NCBI RefSeq assembly: GCF_900114435.1 | Contig: NZ_FOZK01000001.1 | Span: forward strand, 1,178,001 to 1,242,000 | Reading direction: 5' to 3' | Source of the DNA: Halomicrobium zhouii | GTDB taxonomy: Archaea > Halobacteriota > Halobacteria > Halobacteriales > Haloarculaceae | DNA: 64,000 bases | In this document: positions 6,616-48,459 of the stretch, in pieces | How positions within the stretch are numbered: position 1 is the stretch's first letter | How the letters are laid out: each line of letters starts with the position of its first letter | Made by a program: the position numbers and the translations under genes | The notes under the pieces: generated by a model | The model's database searches: none | Seen by the model: only the letters and a program-made list of their open reading frames with translations | What the model was told of the DNA's origin: nothing

Positions 6616-9600
6616 CTACGCCGTCTCGTTCTCGGGCGTGGGCGAGTCCGCCGGGGTCGCCGGTTCCTCGGTCGGCGTGTCGGTCTCCGTGGGCGTCTCG
6701 GTCGCTTCCGGCGTCGGCGTGTCTTCCGGGGTGGGCGTGTCCGTCGGCGTCGGTGAAGGTGTGTCCGTCGCCGTCGGTGAGGGTGTCTCCGTCGGCGTCG
6801 GCGATTCGGTCTCCGTCGGCGTCTCGGTTTCCGCGCGCGGTTCGAGCAGGCCCGGCACGTCGGCGGCGGTCGGGCCGGCCGACGAGACGTTCAAGAGGTC
6901 GAAGTTCGAGAGGTTCAGCGTCCAGGTGACCGACTCGTCGGTGGACTCGGGCGTCCACTCGACGACGACGAAGTTCTCGCCGGTTTCGAGCACCGCGGGC
7001 GGTTCGCCGGCGACGTCACCGCTGGTGAACTGGCTCTCGGCCGGTTCCATCGGCGCGTCGTTGGGGTTGTCGTAGCTGAAGTTGACCACCGCCGTCTCGT
7101 TGTCGACGACCTCGACCGGTTCGCTGGCGAGCGTCGGCAGTTCGGGCCTGACGTCCTCGCGGCACTGTTCGGCGTTGGGCTGTGCGGCCGAGAGGTCCTC
7201 CTGGCCGGTCGGACTCGCAGCGCTGTTCACGTTCGCGACGAAACTCCGGTTTGGCTCACCGAACGCGCCGGGATCCGCGACCTGGATCACCAGCGTTCCG
7301 TCGTCGGTCACCGCCGTCTCGTTCTGCTCGCCGATAGTGACGAGCGTCTGGCCGTCGACCGGTCGATCGGTCGGGACGTCGATGGGCGTCCAGCTGTACT
7401 CGTTCGTCGCGTTCCCGTCCTCGGCGTAGTAGCCGAGCGTGACGCCGAGTCGGTCGTAGCTCCCGGCGACCTGTGCAGTGGTGCAGTTGAGATACTCCAC
7501 GCCCGGTTCGGCCTCGGCTTCGACCGTGAGCGTCCCCGTCGCGTTGTCCGCTGGCGTGAACACGCCGTGTTCGTACTCGCCGGGTGCGAGGCCGCTCGTA
7601 TCGACGTCCGCGAAGGTGACGTTCGACGAGTTACCGGCGTCGAGTTCGAGTTCCTGGTCGGCCACTGTCGTCCCGTCGATTCGGAGTTCCACGGTCTGTA
7701 CGGCGGACTCGCCGCCGTCGTTCGCGACCGTCGCGGAGACGGTGATCGACTCGCCCTGGCTGACGTTCGCTTCGGCGGGGGCCAGGTCAGAGACAGTGAA
7801 CGAGGCCGGTGCCTCCTCGGACTGTGCCAGGACGTACACACCGTCCTCTGTCAGGGTGGTCTCGACGCTTCCGTTGGCGTCGCCGGCGTCGAACGTCTCC
7901 ACCTGGGTCCACTCACTCCCGTCGTGGCGCCACAGTTCGACCTCGGCGTCGGGGTCTGCACGCTGGTACGCGAGCGTCGCGTCGGTGCTGTTCTCGAGTT
8001 CGGTGACGTTCAGGCCGTCCTGGAGCGCCGTCGCGTTCTCGGGGAGCGCCGGGAGTTCGTCGCCGTCGACGACGTCGAGCGTCACGGCCTCCTCGTCGAA
8101 GGCCAGCGAGCCGACGGGGTCCAGTCGCAGGTCGGTGGCCGTGAACGGTCCGGGCGCGAAGCCGGTGTCACGCGGGTTGAGTTCGGCGTCGGTGTGATTC
8201 CGGACGGTGACGTTGTCGAGCGTCTGGGTACTGATGAAGTTCGAGCTGATCCCGGCCCCGTCGTTGTCCGCGACCAGCGAGTCGCGCACGACGTTCTCGG
8301 CGCTGTCCGAGAAGTGGATCCCGTTCTGGCCGTTGTCGGCGACGACGAGTCCGGAGAGCGTGTTGCCCGACGCGCCGACGCCGACGAAGACGCCCTCCTG
8401 TCCGTTCCCGCTCGCGTTCACCTGGCTGAACTCGCTATCCTGGACCAGGTCCCAGAGGTGGAGCCCGTACCCGTCGTTCGCGGAGACGTTGATTCGCTCG
8501 GCCGTCACGTTCTCCGTCTCCCAGAGGCGGATACCAGCGCCGTTTCGGGTGGCCGAGAGGTTCTCGAACGCGGATCCGCTGGCGCTGACGAGGAACGCAC
8601 CGTTGCCGTCGTTCTCGGTTATCGTGACGTTCTCCAGCCGGGCCTGTGCCGGCACGTCGTCGCTGAAGTTACCGATTGCGACGCCGTCGTTCCAGTTCCG
8701 GACCTCGAGGTTCCGGACCGTGACGTTCTCGACGTCGTTTCCGTCGGGATCGTAGGTCTGGATTCCGGTACTGTTCTCCCCGCCGGCGCCGACGAGGGCG
8801 CTGTCGTTCCCATCTATCACCACGTCGCTGGCTTCGATCCTGAGACAGACGCCGTCGGTGTCGCCCTCGACGTCCCCCGCCAGTTCGTACTGGCCGGCCT
8901 CGTCGACGACGGTGCAGGAGTCGATGGTTCGCTCGCCGTCCTCGGGTGGTTCCGCACCCTCGACGGTGATCACGTGTTCCGTCTCGCTGTTCACCGGGAC
9001 GGTCGTGCCGTCGTCGGCCACCGCGGTCAGCGTGTAGTTTCCGGGCTCGAACGCCGCCGTGACGTTCGACTCGGGACCGACGTCGACGGTCTGGTTCGCC
9101 GCGTCGCTCGCGTTCGCGTCCGTCGCGTTCGCGGTGACCGTCACGGCCACGTCGTTCGGGTTGTCGACGGTGACGTTCTCACCTTCGACGGTGACGTTCA
9201 GGCTGTCGACGCCCTCGTCGGGTTCCGCGACCTGAATGTCCAGGGCCGACTCGTTCTCGAGGAGCACTTCGCGCTCGTCGTCGCTCTCACCCGTCAGCGT
9301 GTAGTTTCCGGGCTGGAACTGCTCGGTGACGTTCGCACCGGCGCTGACGTTCAGGGTTCGCTCGCCCTCCGACTCGTTCGTCGCGGTGACCGTGACGTTG
9401 GTCTCGCTCGGATTCTCGACAGTGACGTTCTGCCCGCTCACCGAGACGGTCAGATCGATGGGCTCGTCCGGTTCTGGCGTATCGGGCGTGTCTGGGGTGC
9501 CGGGGGGCTCCGCGGACTCGATACTGAACTCGAAGGCGTCCTGTCCGTTTATCTGGACGGCCGTGCCATCGGTGATCTCGGCCGTCGCCGTGTAATTCCC

Positions 9601-11622
9601 GGGTCCGAACGCTCGGGTCAGGTCCCAGTCGGCGGGCACCTGGAACGACGTCTCCTCGTCGCCGGTGACCTTGACGGTGACGCGCTCGTCGTTCGGGTTC
9701 GCGACCGAAAGGCTCCCGTTCTCGACGCTCGCGGTCAGGGACTGCAGCGCGTCCCCGACCGAGACGGTCAGTTCCGCCCGGCCCGCGAGTTCCACGTCCT
9801 GGCCGTCGGCGGTCTCGGCGGTGAGGGTGTAGGTTCCCCGGTCGCGCTGGAGGTTCGTCGACTCGCCGGGTGCCAGCGTCACCGTCTCCAGGTCGCCGTC
9901 CTGGCTCGTTATCGTCACCGTCACGGCGACGTCGTTGGGGTTCGCGAGGAAGATGGTCTCGCCCTCCGCCGAGGCGAAGAGGCTCCGGAGTTGCTCGTCG
10001 CCGTCGGCCCCGTCACCGTCGTCGGGGTCCTGGGCCGACCCTTTCGCGTAGTTGTATATCGTCACGTCCACGTCGACGTTCAGCTGCGCGGCGGTCGCCG
10101 CGGTGTCGGCGGCGGCGTCGCGGGTGATGATCTGCGTCTGCTCGACGGTGACTTCCTGGCGCTGGGTCAGCGCGAGCGACCCCTCGGAGGCCCCGCGTGC
10201 GGCCGACTGGATCTGGACGACGTTCGCCGTCTGGTGTTGTGACAGTGCTCCGCCGGCGGCGCTCTCGCTGATGATCTGGATCTGGACGACGTTGATCTCC
10301 TGTATCTGGATGACTGTGCCCTGGCCGGCGCCCGCCGCCGCGGCCTGGATCTGTTCGACGTTCACGACCTGGCGCTGGGCGGCCGAGCCGGCGGCGCCCT
10401 TCGCCGCGCCGGTTGCGGCGTACTGTATCTGGGTGATGCTGACTGACTGGGACTGGACGAGCACGCCCTTCGCCGCGCCGGTCGCAGCCGCCTGGATCTG
10501 GGTGACGCTCGCCGTCTGGGACTGGCTGATCGCTCCCTTCGCCGCGCCGTAGGCGGCCGACTGGATCTGGGTGACCGACACCGACTGGCTCTGTTCGAGC
10601 GCGCCCTTGCAGGCCCCTCGTGCGGCGGCCTGCACCTGCTCGACGCTGACATTCTGTTCCTGGGTGACTGACAGCGCACCCTCGGCGGCCCCCATCGCGG
10701 CGACCTGTATCTGCTTGACCGACGCGGTCTGACGCTGCTCGACCGCGACGGACTGGTTCTGGCTGAGCGCTCCCTCCGCGGCGCCGACCGCCGCGGACTG
10801 GCGCTGCTCGACGGAGACGTTCTGCGTCTGGGTCAGCGCGCCGAACGCGGCGCCCTGGGCCGCTTCACGGATGGCGCCGGGGTGAGCTTTCTCCCGCGAC
10901 TCGTTCTCGTCGCGCTTGCCCGCTTCGTGGGCCGCGCCCGCCGCCGCGCCCTGGGCGACTATCTGGACCTGTTCGACCGTCGCGTTCTGCTGCTGGGCGA
11001 CGGCGCCGTGGGTCGCCCCGAACGCGGCGTGCTGGAGCTGGGTCGCGCTCGCGTTCTGGGACTGGGAGAGCGCGCCGCCCGCCCCGCCGGCCGTCGCGTT
11101 CTGGACTTGCTCGACACTGACGTTCTGGCTCTGGAGGAAGGTCCCGGTGACCGCGCCGTAGGAGGCGTTCTGGACCTGCTCGACGGAGGCGTTCTGGTAC
11201 TGGGCCACCGCGTCGACGGTTCCGTTCACCGCGGCGGCGCGCTGGGACTGGTTCACCGAGACGCCCTGTCGCTGGAGCGCCGCGATGGCCTCGTCGACAC
11301 CGGCCTCGGCGGCCTCGCGCGTCTCCCCGTCGACCGAGTCGTTGTCGGTCTCGTTCGCACCCGTCTGGCCGACCTGCGCCGGTGGCGTGGTCCACTGCTC
11401 GTCCGCCGCCGGCGCGTCGGTCTGCTGGAGGGGGCCGTGCTCGACGTTCGCCGGCGGTGCGTCCGCCCCGCTCTCCGTCGTCGCGGCCCCCGCTCCCCCT
11501 ATCGCCATCGGGGCCGCGACGCTGAGGACTAACGCCAGCGTCACGGCGACGACTGGCCACCTGCGTGCGACCCGGTGGGCGTGTGTTGGCGGCTCGGTCG
11601 CTCCGTCGTCACGCGGTTCCAT
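6616..11622 (-). CDS. Giant secreted repeat protein with glutamine-ladder array, Ig-like, beta-helix and CARDB regions
   Basis: A 1668-residue exported protein. Residues 1-46 carry an Arg-rich start and a hydrophobic signal (WPVVAVTLALVLSVAAPMA). Residues about 117-515 form an array of 23-residue units, QxQx(V/A)SVxQ(I/V)Q then AAxGAxxGAL. About 555-895 hold four Ig-like units marked NPND(V/E)xVTVT and GNYTLTA. About 895-1160 are a NosD-type parallel beta-helix with repeated (E/D)NVTV and sNDGxG turns. About 1270-1375 look like a CARDB domain (LAPAEANVSQGESITVSATV). The last 75 residues are a Thr/Pro/Glu stalk. Many N-x-S/T sites suggest glycosylation. There is no C-terminal membrane helix or PGF motif, so it may be released or held by partners. 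The role (adhesin, matrix or surface fibre) is inferred. Confidence 0.85.
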   Translation of the reverse strand: MEPRDDGATEPPTHAHRVARRWPVVAVTLALVLSVAAPMAIGGAGAATTESGADAPPANVEHGPLQQTDAPAADEQWTTPPAQVGQTGANETDNDSVDGETREAAEAGVDEAIAALQRQGVSVNQSQRAAAVNGTVDAVAQYQNASVEQVQNASYGAVTGTFLQSQNVSVEQVQNATAGGAGGALSQSQNASATQLQHAAFGATHGAVAQQQNATVEQVQIVAQGAAAGAAHEAGKRDENESREKAHPGAIREAAQGAAFGALTQTQNVSVEQRQSAAVGAAEGALSQNQSVAVEQRQTASVKQIQVAAMGAAEGALSVTQEQNVSVEQVQAAARGACKGALEQSQSVSVTQIQSAAYGAAKGAISQSQTASVTQIQAAATGAAKGVLVQSQSVSITQIQYAATGAAKGAAGSAAQRQVVNVEQIQAAAAGAGQGTVIQIQEINVVQIQIISESAAGGALSQHQTANVVQIQSAARGASEGSLALTQRQEVTVEQTQIITRDAAADTAATAAQLNVDVDVTIYNYAKGSAQDPDDGDGADGDEQLRSLFASAEGETIFLANPNDVAVTVTITSQDGDLETVTLAPGESTNLQRDRGTYTLTAETADGQDVELAGRAELTVSVGDALQSLTASVENGSLSVANPNDERVTVKVTGDEETSFQVPADWDLTRAFGPGNYTATAEITDGTAVQINGQDAFEFSIESAEPPGTPDTPDTPEPDEPIDLTVSVSGQNVTVENPSETNVTVTATNESEGERTLNVSAGANVTEQFQPGNYTLTGESDDEREVLLENESALDIQVAEPDEGVDSLNVTVEGENVTVDNPNDVAVTVTANATDANASDAANQTVDVGPESNVTAAFEPGNYTLTAVADDGTTVPVNSETEHVITVEGAEPPEDGERTIDSCTVVDEAGQYELAGDVEGDTDGVCLRIEASDVVIDGNDSALVGAGGENSTGIQTYDPDGNDVENVTVRNLEVRNWNDGVAIGNFSDDVPAQARLENVTITENDGNGAFLVSASGSAFENLSATRNGAGIRLWETENVTAERINVSANDGYGLHLWDLVQDSEFSQVNASGNGQEGVFVGVGASGNTLSGLVVADNGQNGIHFSDSAENVVRDSLVADNDGAGISSNFISTQTLDNVTVRNHTDAELNPRDTGFAPGPFTATDLRLDPVGSLAFDEEAVTLDVVDGDELPALPENATALQDGLNVTELENSTDATLAYQRADPDAEVELWRHDGSEWTQVETFDAGDANGSVETTLTEDGVYVLAQSEEAPASFTVSDLAPAEANVSQGESITVSATVANDGGESAVQTVELRIDGTTVADQELELDAGNSSNVTFADVDTSGLAPGEYEHGVFTPADNATGTLTVEAEAEPGVEYLNCTTAQVAGSYDRLGVTLGYYAEDGNATNEYSWTPIDVPTDRPVDGQTLVTIGEQNETAVTDDGTLVIQVADPGAFGEPNRSFVANVNSAASPTGQEDLSAAQPNAEQCREDVRPELPTLASEPVEVVDNETAVVNFSYDNPNDAPMEPAESQFTSGDVAGEPPAVLETGENFVVVEWTPESTDESVTWTLNLSNFDLLNVSSAGPTAADVPGLLEPRAETETPTETESPTPTETPSPTATDTPSPTPTDTPTPEDTPTPEATETPTETDTPTEEPATPADSPTPENETA
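10078..11274 (-). repeat. In-gene array of about fourteen 23-codon units
   Basis: Fourteen or so units of 23 residues run through residues 117-515 of the giant protein. Nearly every unit keeps four Gln at alternating positions (QxQ ... QxQ), a SV or NV beta-type core, and an Ala/Gly helix-like linker. One unit is stretched by a charged insert (AGKRDENESREKAHPGAIREA) and one has an extra half unit. Protein conservation is high while codons vary, which points to old repeats under selection. Confidence 0.85.
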
Positions 11623-45591: not shown

Positions 45592-46191
45592 CGGGTCGCC
45601 CGGCGACGAGACGCGCCTCTGGCTCGACTTCGACCGCGGGTACCGTACCGCTTCTGGGACCAGAACTCGGCCAACGGATGACTCTCGCTCGCGGGGCGCA
45701 TCTACAGCGACCGCTCGACGACGCCCGGGATAGAACGGGTCACGAAGACCCACCAGTTCGCCGGGTTCGCGGCGAACGACCAGGCGAACGGCGACGGACC
45801 TACCGACTGGCGACCGTCACCAGCGGCGAGGTCGTCGTCGACGGCGGTTCGAACCGACGGCTATCGACTCAGAGACCCGGCTGCAGAGCGCTGGCCGTTT
45901 GTTGCCCGAAACCACCGGAAAGTTTTACTGTTGGACATATGTTATTATTGATCGTCTGCCACGCGAGCGACGTCGTTCGGTTAGGGTCGGCTCGGAGACG
46001 CGACAGCGACGGTTGGTAGTCCGGGACGACCGGGTACACCGCTTCGATCGCCACCGCCGACGGGTGAGCGGAGGGATACGAGCAGGGGACTGTACTCGGA
46101 TCCTTCGAGATGGCCGTTCGACGCCGTCGAGCGGCGTCTATCGGCTGCACACTCGCGCTCGCAAACGGCCGTGGCAGCGGATGTGATACAG
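45592..46191. other. Intergenic region upstream of the GH27 gene
   Basis: One plus-strand frame (45682-45948) reads in protein-like fashion (LSLAGRIYSDRSTTPGIER, VTKTHQFAGFAANDQANGDG), but it starts after a stop and has no homologue I recognise. It may be a decayed gene. An AT-rich run, AAAGTTTTACTGTTGGACAT, near 45910-45930 could be a promoter for GH27. Confidence 0.35.
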
Positions 46192-48459
46192 ATGACACCC
46201 AATTCACACGCGGAGGGAGGCATCGCAGAGCAATCGACGGCCGAGCGAGCGACGACTGACGACGGCCCCGACGACAGATCGGCGACGACGCAACCGGACT
46301 CCGAGGACGACCCCGACGTCGGACGGCGCGACGTCCTCCGGTCGGTCGCCGCTGCGGGGGCGTTTTCGGCGCTGGGCCTCGGCGGTGCGGCGGGGTCGGC
46401 GAGCGCCGCCCACGACCAGGGGCTCTCGCAAACCCCCCCGATGGGGTGGAACAGCTGGAACACGTTCGGCTGTGACATCGACGAGGGGTTGATCCGGGAC
46501 ACCGCGGACGCGATGGTGACCAGCGGAATGGCCGCGGCGGGCTACGAGTACGTCAACCTGGACGACTGCTGGATGGCCCACACGCGCGATAGCAACGGGG
46601 ATCTAGTGGCGAATACGACCCGGTTCCCGAGCGGAATGGCGGCGCTGGCCGAGTACGTCCACGATCAGGGGCTCGAGATCGGGCTCTACGAGTCCGCGGG
46701 GACGGAGCCCTGCGCCTCCGAGAACAACCAGTACTCGGCTCCCGGCTGTCTCAACAACGAGTACAACGACGCGAACACGTTCGCAAGGTGGGGGATCGAT
46801 TACCTGAAGTACGACAACTGCGGGGGCCACGGCGGTCAGAGCGCCTGGGAGCGCTTCTTGCGGATGTCGGACGCGCTCGACCAGTCCGGTCGGGACATCG
46901 TCTACAGCCAGTGTTCCTGGGGACAGGAGGGCGCCGAGTGGACGTGGGCCTGGCGCCACGGGGCGAACCTCTGGCGGACGACGGCGGACATCACCGACTC
47001 CTGGGACGAGGGCAAGAGCGCCTGTGACAACAACTTCTTCATGGGCGTCACGGACATCGTCGACTTCCAGGACTGCGAGGACATGCACCGGTACGCGAAC
47101 TGGGGCCACTGGAACGACCCCGACATGCTCGAAGTCGGCAACCCCGGCCTCAGCGAGACCGAGTCGCGCGCCCACTTCGGCATGTGGTGTCTCATGGCCG
47201 CGCCGCTCATCGCCGGCAACGACCTCCGGAACATGTCCCAGTCGACGGTGGACGTCCTGACGAACCAGGAGGTCGTCGACGTCGACCAGGACCCTGCCGG
47301 GGTTCAGGGCCGCAAGGTCCGCGACGACGGCGACCGAGAGGTCTGGGCGAAGCCGCTCGTCGACAACGAGGTCGCCGTCGGGCTGTTCAACCGGGGGAGT
47401 TCGTCGGCCACCATCTCGACGATGGCCGCCGAGGTGGGCCTCCCGAGCGCGACCGACTACGTCGTCCGCGACCTTCATGCGCACACCGAGAGCATCTCGT
47501 CGGGAGGCATCAGTGCGAGCGTTCCGGCACACGGTCTCGCGCTGTTCCGCGTCACCGTCAACTCCGGGGGCGCTGACACTCGCCCGACGGAGTACCTCAG
47601 CGACTGGCACTGGATGGCCGCGTACAACGGCTGGAACGACGTCCAACGCGACGCTTCCGTCGACGGGAACCCGATCACGCTGAACGGGACGACGTACAGC
47701 AAAGGGCTGGGCACGCACGCCCACTCCCAGGTCGTCTACAGCCTCGGCGGCGGCTACGACCGCTTCCAGGCCGACGTCGGCATCGACGACGAAGTAGACG
47801 GCGAGTCGGCGAGCGCCCGCTTCGAGGTCTGGGGTGACGGTAGCAAGCTATACGAGAGCCCGGACGTGACGCCGAGTTCGGCGACCGAGTCCGTCGACGT
47901 GAGCGTCTCGGGAGTGAACACGCTCAAACTGATCACGACGCCCGTTTCGAACAGCGACGGCATCGACTACGACCACACCGACTGGGCCGACGCCCGCGTG
48001 TCCAGCGGCGGTGGCGGCGGGGACGGTCCCATCGACGAGGGAACGTACATCATCGAGAACGTCAACAGCGGGAAGCTACTGGACGTCTACCAGAACGGGA
48101 CCGCCGACGGTGACGACGTGATTCAGTGGGCGGACAACGGCGGCGAGAACCAGCAGTGGGAGGCCGTCCGAAACGCCGATGGCTCCTACCACTTCCTGAA
48201 CGTCAACAGCGGCAAAGCGCTCGCCGTCGAGGGTGGCGGCACCGCCGACGGCGACACCGTCGTCCAGTGGGGCTACGACGGCGGTTCGAACCAGCACTGG
48301 GACGTCGTCGACAACGGCGACGGGACCTACCGACTGGCGAACGTCAACAGCGGCAAGGTCGCCGACGTCGACGACGGGTCGACCGCAGACGGTGCCGACG
48401 TCATCCAGTGGGCGTGGCACGGCGGCGACAACCAGAAGTGGACGTTTTCCTCGATCTGA
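46192..48459 (+). CDS. GH27 alpha-galactosidase with NPCBM and ricin-type domains, Tat-exported
   Basis: The 755-residue protein (ATG 46192; an in-frame GTG lies 21 bases earlier) has a Tat signal (GRRDVLRSVAAAGAFSALG) cleaved near ASAAHD. The GH27 barrel spans about 80-430: TPPMGWNSWNTFGC, nucleophile Asp in YLKYDNCGG, acid/base Asp in HWNDPDMLEV. About 460-600 is an NPCBM domain (YNGWNDVQRDASV) and about 620-755 a ricin-type beta-trefoil with three (Q/N)xW repeats. This layout is familiar from soil bacteria, so transfer is likely. It removes alpha-galactosyl groups outside the cell. The gene is flanked by two trpG 3' ends. Confidence 0.9.
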   Translation: MTPNSHAEGGIAEQSTAERATTDDGPDDRSATTQPDSEDDPDVGRRDVLRSVAAAGAFSALGLGGAAGSASAAHDQGLSQTPPMGWNSWNTFGCDIDEGLIRDTADAMVTSGMAAAGYEYVNLDDCWMAHTRDSNGDLVANTTRFPSGMAALAEYVHDQGLEIGLYESAGTEPCASENNQYSAPGCLNNEYNDANTFARWGIDYLKYDNCGGHGGQSAWERFLRMSDALDQSGRDIVYSQCSWGQEGAEWTWAWRHGANLWRTTADITDSWDEGKSACDNNFFMGVTDIVDFQDCEDMHRYANWGHWNDPDMLEVGNPGLSETESRAHFGMWCLMAAPLIAGNDLRNMSQSTVDVLTNQEVVDVDQDPAGVQGRKVRDDGDREVWAKPLVDNEVAVGLFNRGSSSATISTMAAEVGLPSATDYVVRDLHAHTESISSGGISASVPAHGLALFRVTVNSGGADTRPTEYLSDWHWMAAYNGWNDVQRDASVDGNPITLNGTTYSKGLGTHAHSQVVYSLGGGYDRFQADVGIDDEVDGESASARFEVWGDGSKLYESPDVTPSSATESVDVSVSGVNTLKLITTPVSNSDGIDYDHTDWADARVSSGGGGGDGPIDEGTYIIENVNSGKLLDVYQNGTADGDDVIQWADNGGENQQWEAVRNADGSYHFLNVNSGKALAVEGGGTADGDTVVQWGYDGGSNQHWDVVDNGDGTYRLANVNSGKVADVDDGSTADGADVIQWAWHGGDNQKWTFSSI

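Follow-up and report, generated by a model that had tools for sequence, protein, structure and literature searches.

We found that an array of glutamine-rich 23-residue repeats in a large protein of Halomicrobium zhouii is an old domain whose size hardly varies, and, on balance and with some reserve, we take it for a conserved, compact alpha/beta solenoid that lies N-terminally in an exported haloarchaeal scaffold protein. The array itself, its conservation, the swapping of domains around it, its module boundaries and its couplings were computed, and from these we infer the three-dimensional fold, the surface location and the scaffold role. The gene lies on the minus strand of the window (the whole stretch of DNA that was analysed, 64,000 nucleotides). 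The original prediction had placed a 23-residue Gln array of a giant exported protein at 10078-11274, and such an array is indeed present there: its identity at lag 23 was 0.355, as against a maximum of 0.185 across 5,000 shuffles. The strict pattern Q.Q.....Q.Q, by which we counted motifs, spans 10096-11274 (aa 117-509) and gives 15 non-overlapping motifs, or 16 if one overlapping motif is counted. Motif spacing is mostly 23 residues, with 24, 25 and 26 at fixed places, and the array holds in addition one unit consisting of a helix half only (aa 250-264) and one duplicated strand half of 8 residues (aa 288-295). The host protein, P0001, is laid out as follows.

6616-11622, minus strand: exported repeat protein P0001 (predicted), an open frame with an ATG start and 1668 aa; orthologues are about 1200-2100 aa long in other Halobacteria
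11479-11565, minus strand: hydrophobic, signal-peptide-like N-terminus, aa 20-48; hydropathy maximum 2.33 at aa 24-42
11203-11325, minus strand: putative helical N-cap entering the array, aa 100-140, conserved in the orthologue alignment; AF2 helices at pLDDT 63-79, from the 435-aa job with an overall pLDDT of 33
10096-11274, minus strand: 23-residue repeat array, aa 117-509, 15-16 motifs; conserved columns Q1, Q3, Q9, Q11, G16 and G20
10927-11274, minus strand: Block 1, five units, aa 117-232, from the motif scan and an alignment of 20 orthologues
10831-10926, minus strand: charged linker, aa 233-249, and the helix-half-only unit AIREAAQGAAFGALT, aa 250-264, from the sequence and the module parse; the latter is kept as xIQEAAQGAAYGAL among orthologues
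10663-10830, minus strand: Block 2, a unit (aa 265-287), the extra 8-residue strand half (aa 288-295) and a further unit (aa 296-320)
10096-10662, minus strand: Block 3, eight units, aa 321-509, with spacings of 23, 23, 23, 26, 23, 23 and 25
10033-10095, minus strand: putative C-cap after the last unit, aa 510-530, an AADTAA-type segment conserved in the orthologue alignment
8923-9990, minus strand: Ig-like repeats of the type NPNDVAVTVT...PGNYTLTA, aa 545-900, seen as repeated local matches to relatives
8284-8736, minus strand: right-handed beta-helix domain, aa 963-1113 (Pfam PF13229 Beta_helix, E 5.8e-16)
7567-7779, minus strand: CARDB domain, aa 1282-1352 (Pfam PF07705, E 1.3e-9, searched alone)
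6853-7500, minus strand: conserved unnamed C-terminal domain, aa 1375-1590, 31-37% identical to the C-terminal part of relatives of Natrialbaceae type
6619-6843, minus strand: Thr/Pro/Glu-rich tail, aa 1594-1668, from sequence and hydropathy

The hydrophobic N-terminus, an equivalent of which is present in nearly all relatives, and the extracellular domain types that follow the array (beta-helix and CARDB) predict from sequence that P0001 is an exported protein of the surface type, as had been claimed. The beta-helix and CARDB parts of the original prediction were borne out by their Pfam matches; the Ig-like parts hold up as internal repeats, for which Pfam gave weak hits of Ig type and no match above cut-off save a marginal one to PLipase_C_C (24.5 vs 24.4 bits). 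No Pfam match above cut-off was found for the domain at aa 1375-1590, and hydropathy revealed no C-terminal membrane anchor in P0001; some relatives carry a C-terminal membrane segment. The array, which is single-copy in its genome, is rich in Gln and Ala and has few acidic residues (Q 16%, A 23%, D+E 7%), whereas the remainder of the protein is acidic (Q 3% and D+E 20% in the C-terminal rest). The C-terminal modules vary between relatives, being Ig-like, beta-helix, CARDB, DUF7282 or TSP3 repeats. Because the N-terminal array is constant while the C-terminal part changes, the simplest reading is that the array serves as a rigid exported platform that positions binding modules. Note that in one relative (L048, 6639-10967, minus strand) the array is fused to bacterial TSP3 calcium-type repeats, of which 19 were matched (Pfam PF18884, E 1e-115), and that in a short relative (L058, 9095-10120, minus strand) the C-terminal tail consists of bare QSQSVDVSQSQ strand motifs with Gly-rich linkers, without the helix half.

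The consensus of 225 units, Q-s-Q-x-(V/A)-(T/S/N)-(V/I)-(E/T)-Q-(I/V)-Q-a-A-A-x-G-A-A-x-G-(A/S)-(L/V/I)-s, was built from units selected by their Gln motif, so that its Gln frequencies are inflated. The same Gln and Gly columns are invariant in an orthologue alignment made without Gln selection, and in a unit set selected by score the frequencies were 90-97% for Q and 95-97% for G. At the variable positions, units occupying the same place in proteins of different genera were identical at a rate of 0.42, as compared with 0.22-0.24 for units from different places or within one protein. The number of units is likewise nearly fixed, at mostly 14 or 15 among members, and comparison of P0001 with two congeners gave dN/dS values of 0.17 and 0.31 for the array as against 0.32 and 0.90 for the C-terminal rest. 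No other part of the protein is as constrained as the array, which is under purifying selection. It is this combination of positional identity, fixed unit number and low dN/dS that argues for an old domain, whereas many adhesins and fibre proteins have arrays of variable size. We rejected recent tandem expansion of the DNA as the origin of the repeats, since similarity among the DNA copies, measured over 69 bp, does not exceed about 77-78%, and the units are orthologous across genera.

Each unit appears to consist of two halves, one alternating and strand-like (Q-x-Q-x-V-x-V-x-Q-I-Q) and one rich in Ala and Gly (A-A-x-G-A-A-x-G-A-L) with alpha-helical periodicity. Variability alternates over positions 1-13, where variability is greatest at the six positions 2, 4, 6, 8, 10 and 12, and the most variable positions within 8-23, namely 8, 12, 15, 19 and 23, fall on a single helix face (0.18% of five-position subsets are as tight). 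Natural indels also point to two halves. In particular, the strand half QxQxVxVx was found duplicated as exactly 8 residues, with the phase of the alternation kept, in 123 cases; helix halves occurred without a strand half in 132 cases; the strand-to-helix junction at position 8/9 was uninterrupted in 967 of 978 cases and interrupted in 11; and insertions of two or three residues occurred after positions 20-23. (Note that these counts tally each orthologous site once per protein and are thus not independent events.) Pro is limited to positions 1-3, 6-8 and 21. In 88% of units, one of the residues typical of helix N-caps (Ser, Thr, Asn or Asp) occupies position 6. Within the unit at aa 187-209 (10996-11064), position 19 is a His that is invariant in 20 of 20 orthologues (alignment column H111) and position 15 is aromatic (F/W/Y) or His in the 20 aligned orthologues; both are predicted to lie on an exposed helix face and together form a candidate interaction site. 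Likewise invariant among the 20 aligned orthologues is a Lys in the unit that begins at aa 296, where it occupies position 8.

We applied mean-field direct coupling analysis to about 1,100 units from 86 non-redundant proteins. Within positions 1-11, couplings at separations of 2, 4, 6 and 8 were 1.61, 1.39, 1.34 and 1.53, and those at odd separations were 0.22 or less, although degenerate units that lose all of their Gln together can supply part of this even-separation signal. Within positions 12-23, couplings at separations of 3, 4 and 7 were 1.08, 1.97 and 0.60, as compared with 0.16 at separation 2. Between units n and n+1, the score for antiparallel helices was 0.60, against -0.19 +/- 0.04 for a cross-protein null, with contacts between positions summing to 33-37 (for example 21-14', 13-20' and 14-19'). 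Between units n and n+2, parallel helices scored 0.79 (null -0.11) and in-register strands 0.95 (null -0.37), and coupling faded from n+3 onward. The null, in which units of equal array index were paired across proteins, abolished the between-unit signal. Repeat proteins can yield artefactual couplings between equivalent positions (PMC8078820). Such an artefact touches the in-register n/n+2 signal and spares the antiparallel n/n+1 signal; moreover, one would expect it at all spacings, and n+2 is the only one at which the parallel signal is strong. These couplings support a unit made of a strand and a helix, with neighbouring helices antiparallel and unit n lying on n+2, as would befit a coil of 46 residues and two units. 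It is mainly from this coupling pattern that we infer a solenoid with two units per coil.

Weighed against this arrangement is a fold made wholly of beta structure, in which each unit would supply one or two strands, Gln would stack unit on unit and the array would seed or form matrix fibres. The alternation of Gln and Val over positions 1-13 is consistent with such a fold, as is an AF2 job on 120 aa (the first five units of Block 3, 113 sliding rows), whose best model (pLDDT 63, pTM 0.45; 28-47 for the other four) consisted entirely of beta structure, each strand being 17-20 residues long and the chain turning near positions 16-20. Also in its favour is that amyloid dyes have been reported to stain the biofilm matrix of Haloferax volcanii (PMC4180959). 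That staining is not evidence for the array protein itself, because no Haloferax locus is among the named hits of our scan of 84,980 genomes. The helix-type couplings of positions 12-23 (separations 3, 4 and 7), the antiparallel n/n+1 signal combined with the parallel n/n+2 signal, and the nearly fixed number and positional identity of the units all argue against an all-beta fold, as does the failure to find a curlin match or CsgG. Foldseek returned non-significant matches for the best model, mostly to long-hairpin pore-forming proteins; because the model is unreliable, we did not take these matches as pointing to a function. The AF2 models carry less weight with us than the coupling pattern, yet they keep the all-beta fold alive as an alternative, one that we consider unlikely. 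We also considered an antiparallel beta-meander, to which the palindromic Q.Q.V.V.Q.Q pattern and the AF2 model pointed, and rated it low, since it is positions 20-23, rather than the supposed turn, that receive the insertions. Thus, of the beta-solenoid with a Gln ladder that had originally been proposed, a stacked repeat bearing such a ladder finds support, in that positions 1-11 alternate like a strand and couple in register between n and n+2, whereas positions 12-23 appear to be helical and the coil would not correspond to one unit. The suggestion of an amyloid-like fibre fared worse, and is unlikely given the nearly fixed unit number, the positional identity across genera and a dN/dS that is lowest in the array.

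The couplings between helices, antiparallel at n/n+1 and parallel at n/n+2, are also what an alpha-alpha solenoid or bundle would produce, with one helix per unit, antiparallel neighbours and the Q-x-Q-x-V-x-V segments as extended loops between helices without a true sheet. The N-cap residues at position 6 fit this arrangement, and in an AF2 job on 435 aa of the array (20 rows) the N-terminal units came out as helices 17-20 residues long. Such an arrangement accords poorly with the strong alternation and even-separation couplings of positions 1-11, with the in-register strand coupling at n/n+2 and with the 8-residue duplications that preserve the phase of the alternation, and we regard it as improbable, with perhaps one chance in several of being correct. 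A low-complexity Gln/Ala linker, disordered and with no defined fold, is another way to read the array, and might be suggested by its composition and by the low confidence of the 435-aa job (pLDDT 33, pTM 0.23); the conservation of the Gln and Gly columns across families, the purifying selection, the positional identity of the units and the structured couplings make this very improbable indeed.

We compared the array with known repeat systems. Curlin (CsgA/CsgB) shares a period of 22-23 residues, conserved Gln proposed to stack in ladders, and export. The array differs from curlin in lacking a profile match, in a unit that is half helical as judged from the couplings, in its probable n/n+2 stacking, in its nearly fixed unit number and in the lack of CsgG. 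Specifically, Curlin_rpt (PF07012) did not match in 20 members at E values up to 5 and was absent from the genome (an E. coli control was positive), and CsgG (PF03783) was also absent from the genome (control genomes were positive), so membership of the curlin family was not upheld. Note that, because archaea of this group have no outer membrane, the absence of CsgG is weak evidence alone. The alpha/beta solenoids (RepeatsDB class III), leucine-rich repeats among them, have the short strand-then-helix unit and stacked solenoid that are proposed for the array, but the array uses Gln/Val and Ala/Gly in place of Leu and would have two units per coil rather than one; the LRR profile did not match the array, the consensus of which is Gln/Val and not LxxLxLxxN. 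Alpha-alpha solenoids of the TPR and HEAT type share the alternating antiparallel helices and parallel n/n+2 contacts that the couplings suggest, whereas the array has a single 23-residue unit, a strand-like half of 8-11 residues, a Gly/Ala face and no Pfam match. The right-handed beta-helix (PF13229, NosD) has a coil of 22-24 residues and occurs in P0001 itself at aa 963-1113, but the array shows helix periodicity in positions 12-23, and neither PF13229 nor PF05048 matched over the array (best stretches aa 963-1113 and 931-1061, respectively; none in 20 members). Finally, Gly-zipper_YMGG shares GxxxG spacing (G16-G20) in an Ala-rich helix; in the array this GxxxG sits inside a tandem strand-helix unit, and the model gave one weak match in 20 members (E 0.0045), which was the best match to any family database. 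Consistent with the view that the repeat belongs to no named family, neither the array nor its profile had a significant match in Pfam, NCBIfam or PDB sequences (nothing below E 0.8 in PDB for the full protein, and nothing for the array profile), and a search of the open-access literature found no description of it. The array was filed as a putative new repeat family of the solenoid kind, resembling alpha/beta and alpha-alpha solenoids in its proposed architecture and matching none of them in sequence.

In the alpha/beta solenoid that we favour, positions 1-11 (QxQxVxVxQIQ) would form an extended strand, followed directly by an Ala/Gly helix at positions 12-23 (xAAxGAAxGALx), with flexibility only at the helix-to-strand junction (positions 21-23). 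The small Gly/Ala face would pack neighbouring helices antiparallel, unit n would lie in register on n+2, and the coil of two units (46 residues) would have a pseudo-twofold screw, with ladders of Gln and Val running along the strand faces. The 14-15 units would then make about seven coils, closed at the ends by helical caps, and the resulting rigid platform would hold the interchangeable C-terminal modules (Ig-like, beta-helix, CARDB, DUF7282 or TSP3) outside the cell. One difficulty for this coil is the mismatch between a strand spacing of 4.8 A and a helix spacing of 7-8 A, which makes it hard for both to stack with an equal rise. More tentatively still, and with the odds somewhat against it, the array may represent a new class of solenoid, defined by a 46-residue coil of two strand-helix units with a twofold screw, Gln ladders and Gly/Ala-zippered antiparallel helices, and serving a lineage-wide family of exported haloarchaeal proteins as its constant platform at the N-terminus. 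If the architecture is true, it would add a repeat class to the solenoids and would provide a simple and testable design rule, pairing a Gln/Val strand with a GxxxG Ala helix at two units per coil, that functions at a low content of acidic residues in near-saturated salt. The protein is, in addition, a concrete candidate for what builds the haloarchaeal cell surface and matrix.

A protein search of the class Halobacteria found the array in 111 of 391 genomes and 36 of 86 genera. It is present in 84% of the genomes (105/125) of one large family, of Natrialbaceae type (Natrinema, Natrialba, Natronorubrum, Natribaculum and others), yet has no Pfam or NCBIfam entry; in the family of the window's genome, to which Haloarculaceae archaeon H-GB1-1 also belongs, it occurs in 14 of 146. 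When 84,980 genomes of bacteria and archaea were scanned with two short peptide patterns, which distant relatives elsewhere may escape, 64 loci were confirmed, every one of them haloarchaeal. Matches in a phylum-level search were confined to the same order, and no relatives of the array were found in viral contigs. As far as searched, the array family thus appears to be restricted to Halobacteria.

A conserved gene neighbourhood was considered as a clue to function and rejected, as the partners differ between groups. In Natrialbaceae-type relatives the gene often lies beside genes for BioY, an ABC ATPase and a CbiQ-type protein (an ECF transporter), with a DUF7545 protein encoded on the opposite flank (L034-L041 and L067-L070). 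In the window's genus it lies between a replication-factor-C-like AAA gene and the COX15-CtaA and malic enzyme genes. The array gene thus has no constant neighbours that would name a partner. Elsewhere in the window, positions 46171-48459 of the plus strand encode a Tat-type exported protein that, judged by eye from its translation, is alpha-galactosidase-like, and that ends in a C-terminal ricin-type lectin repeat with a period of 141 bp (TRF 48096-48435).
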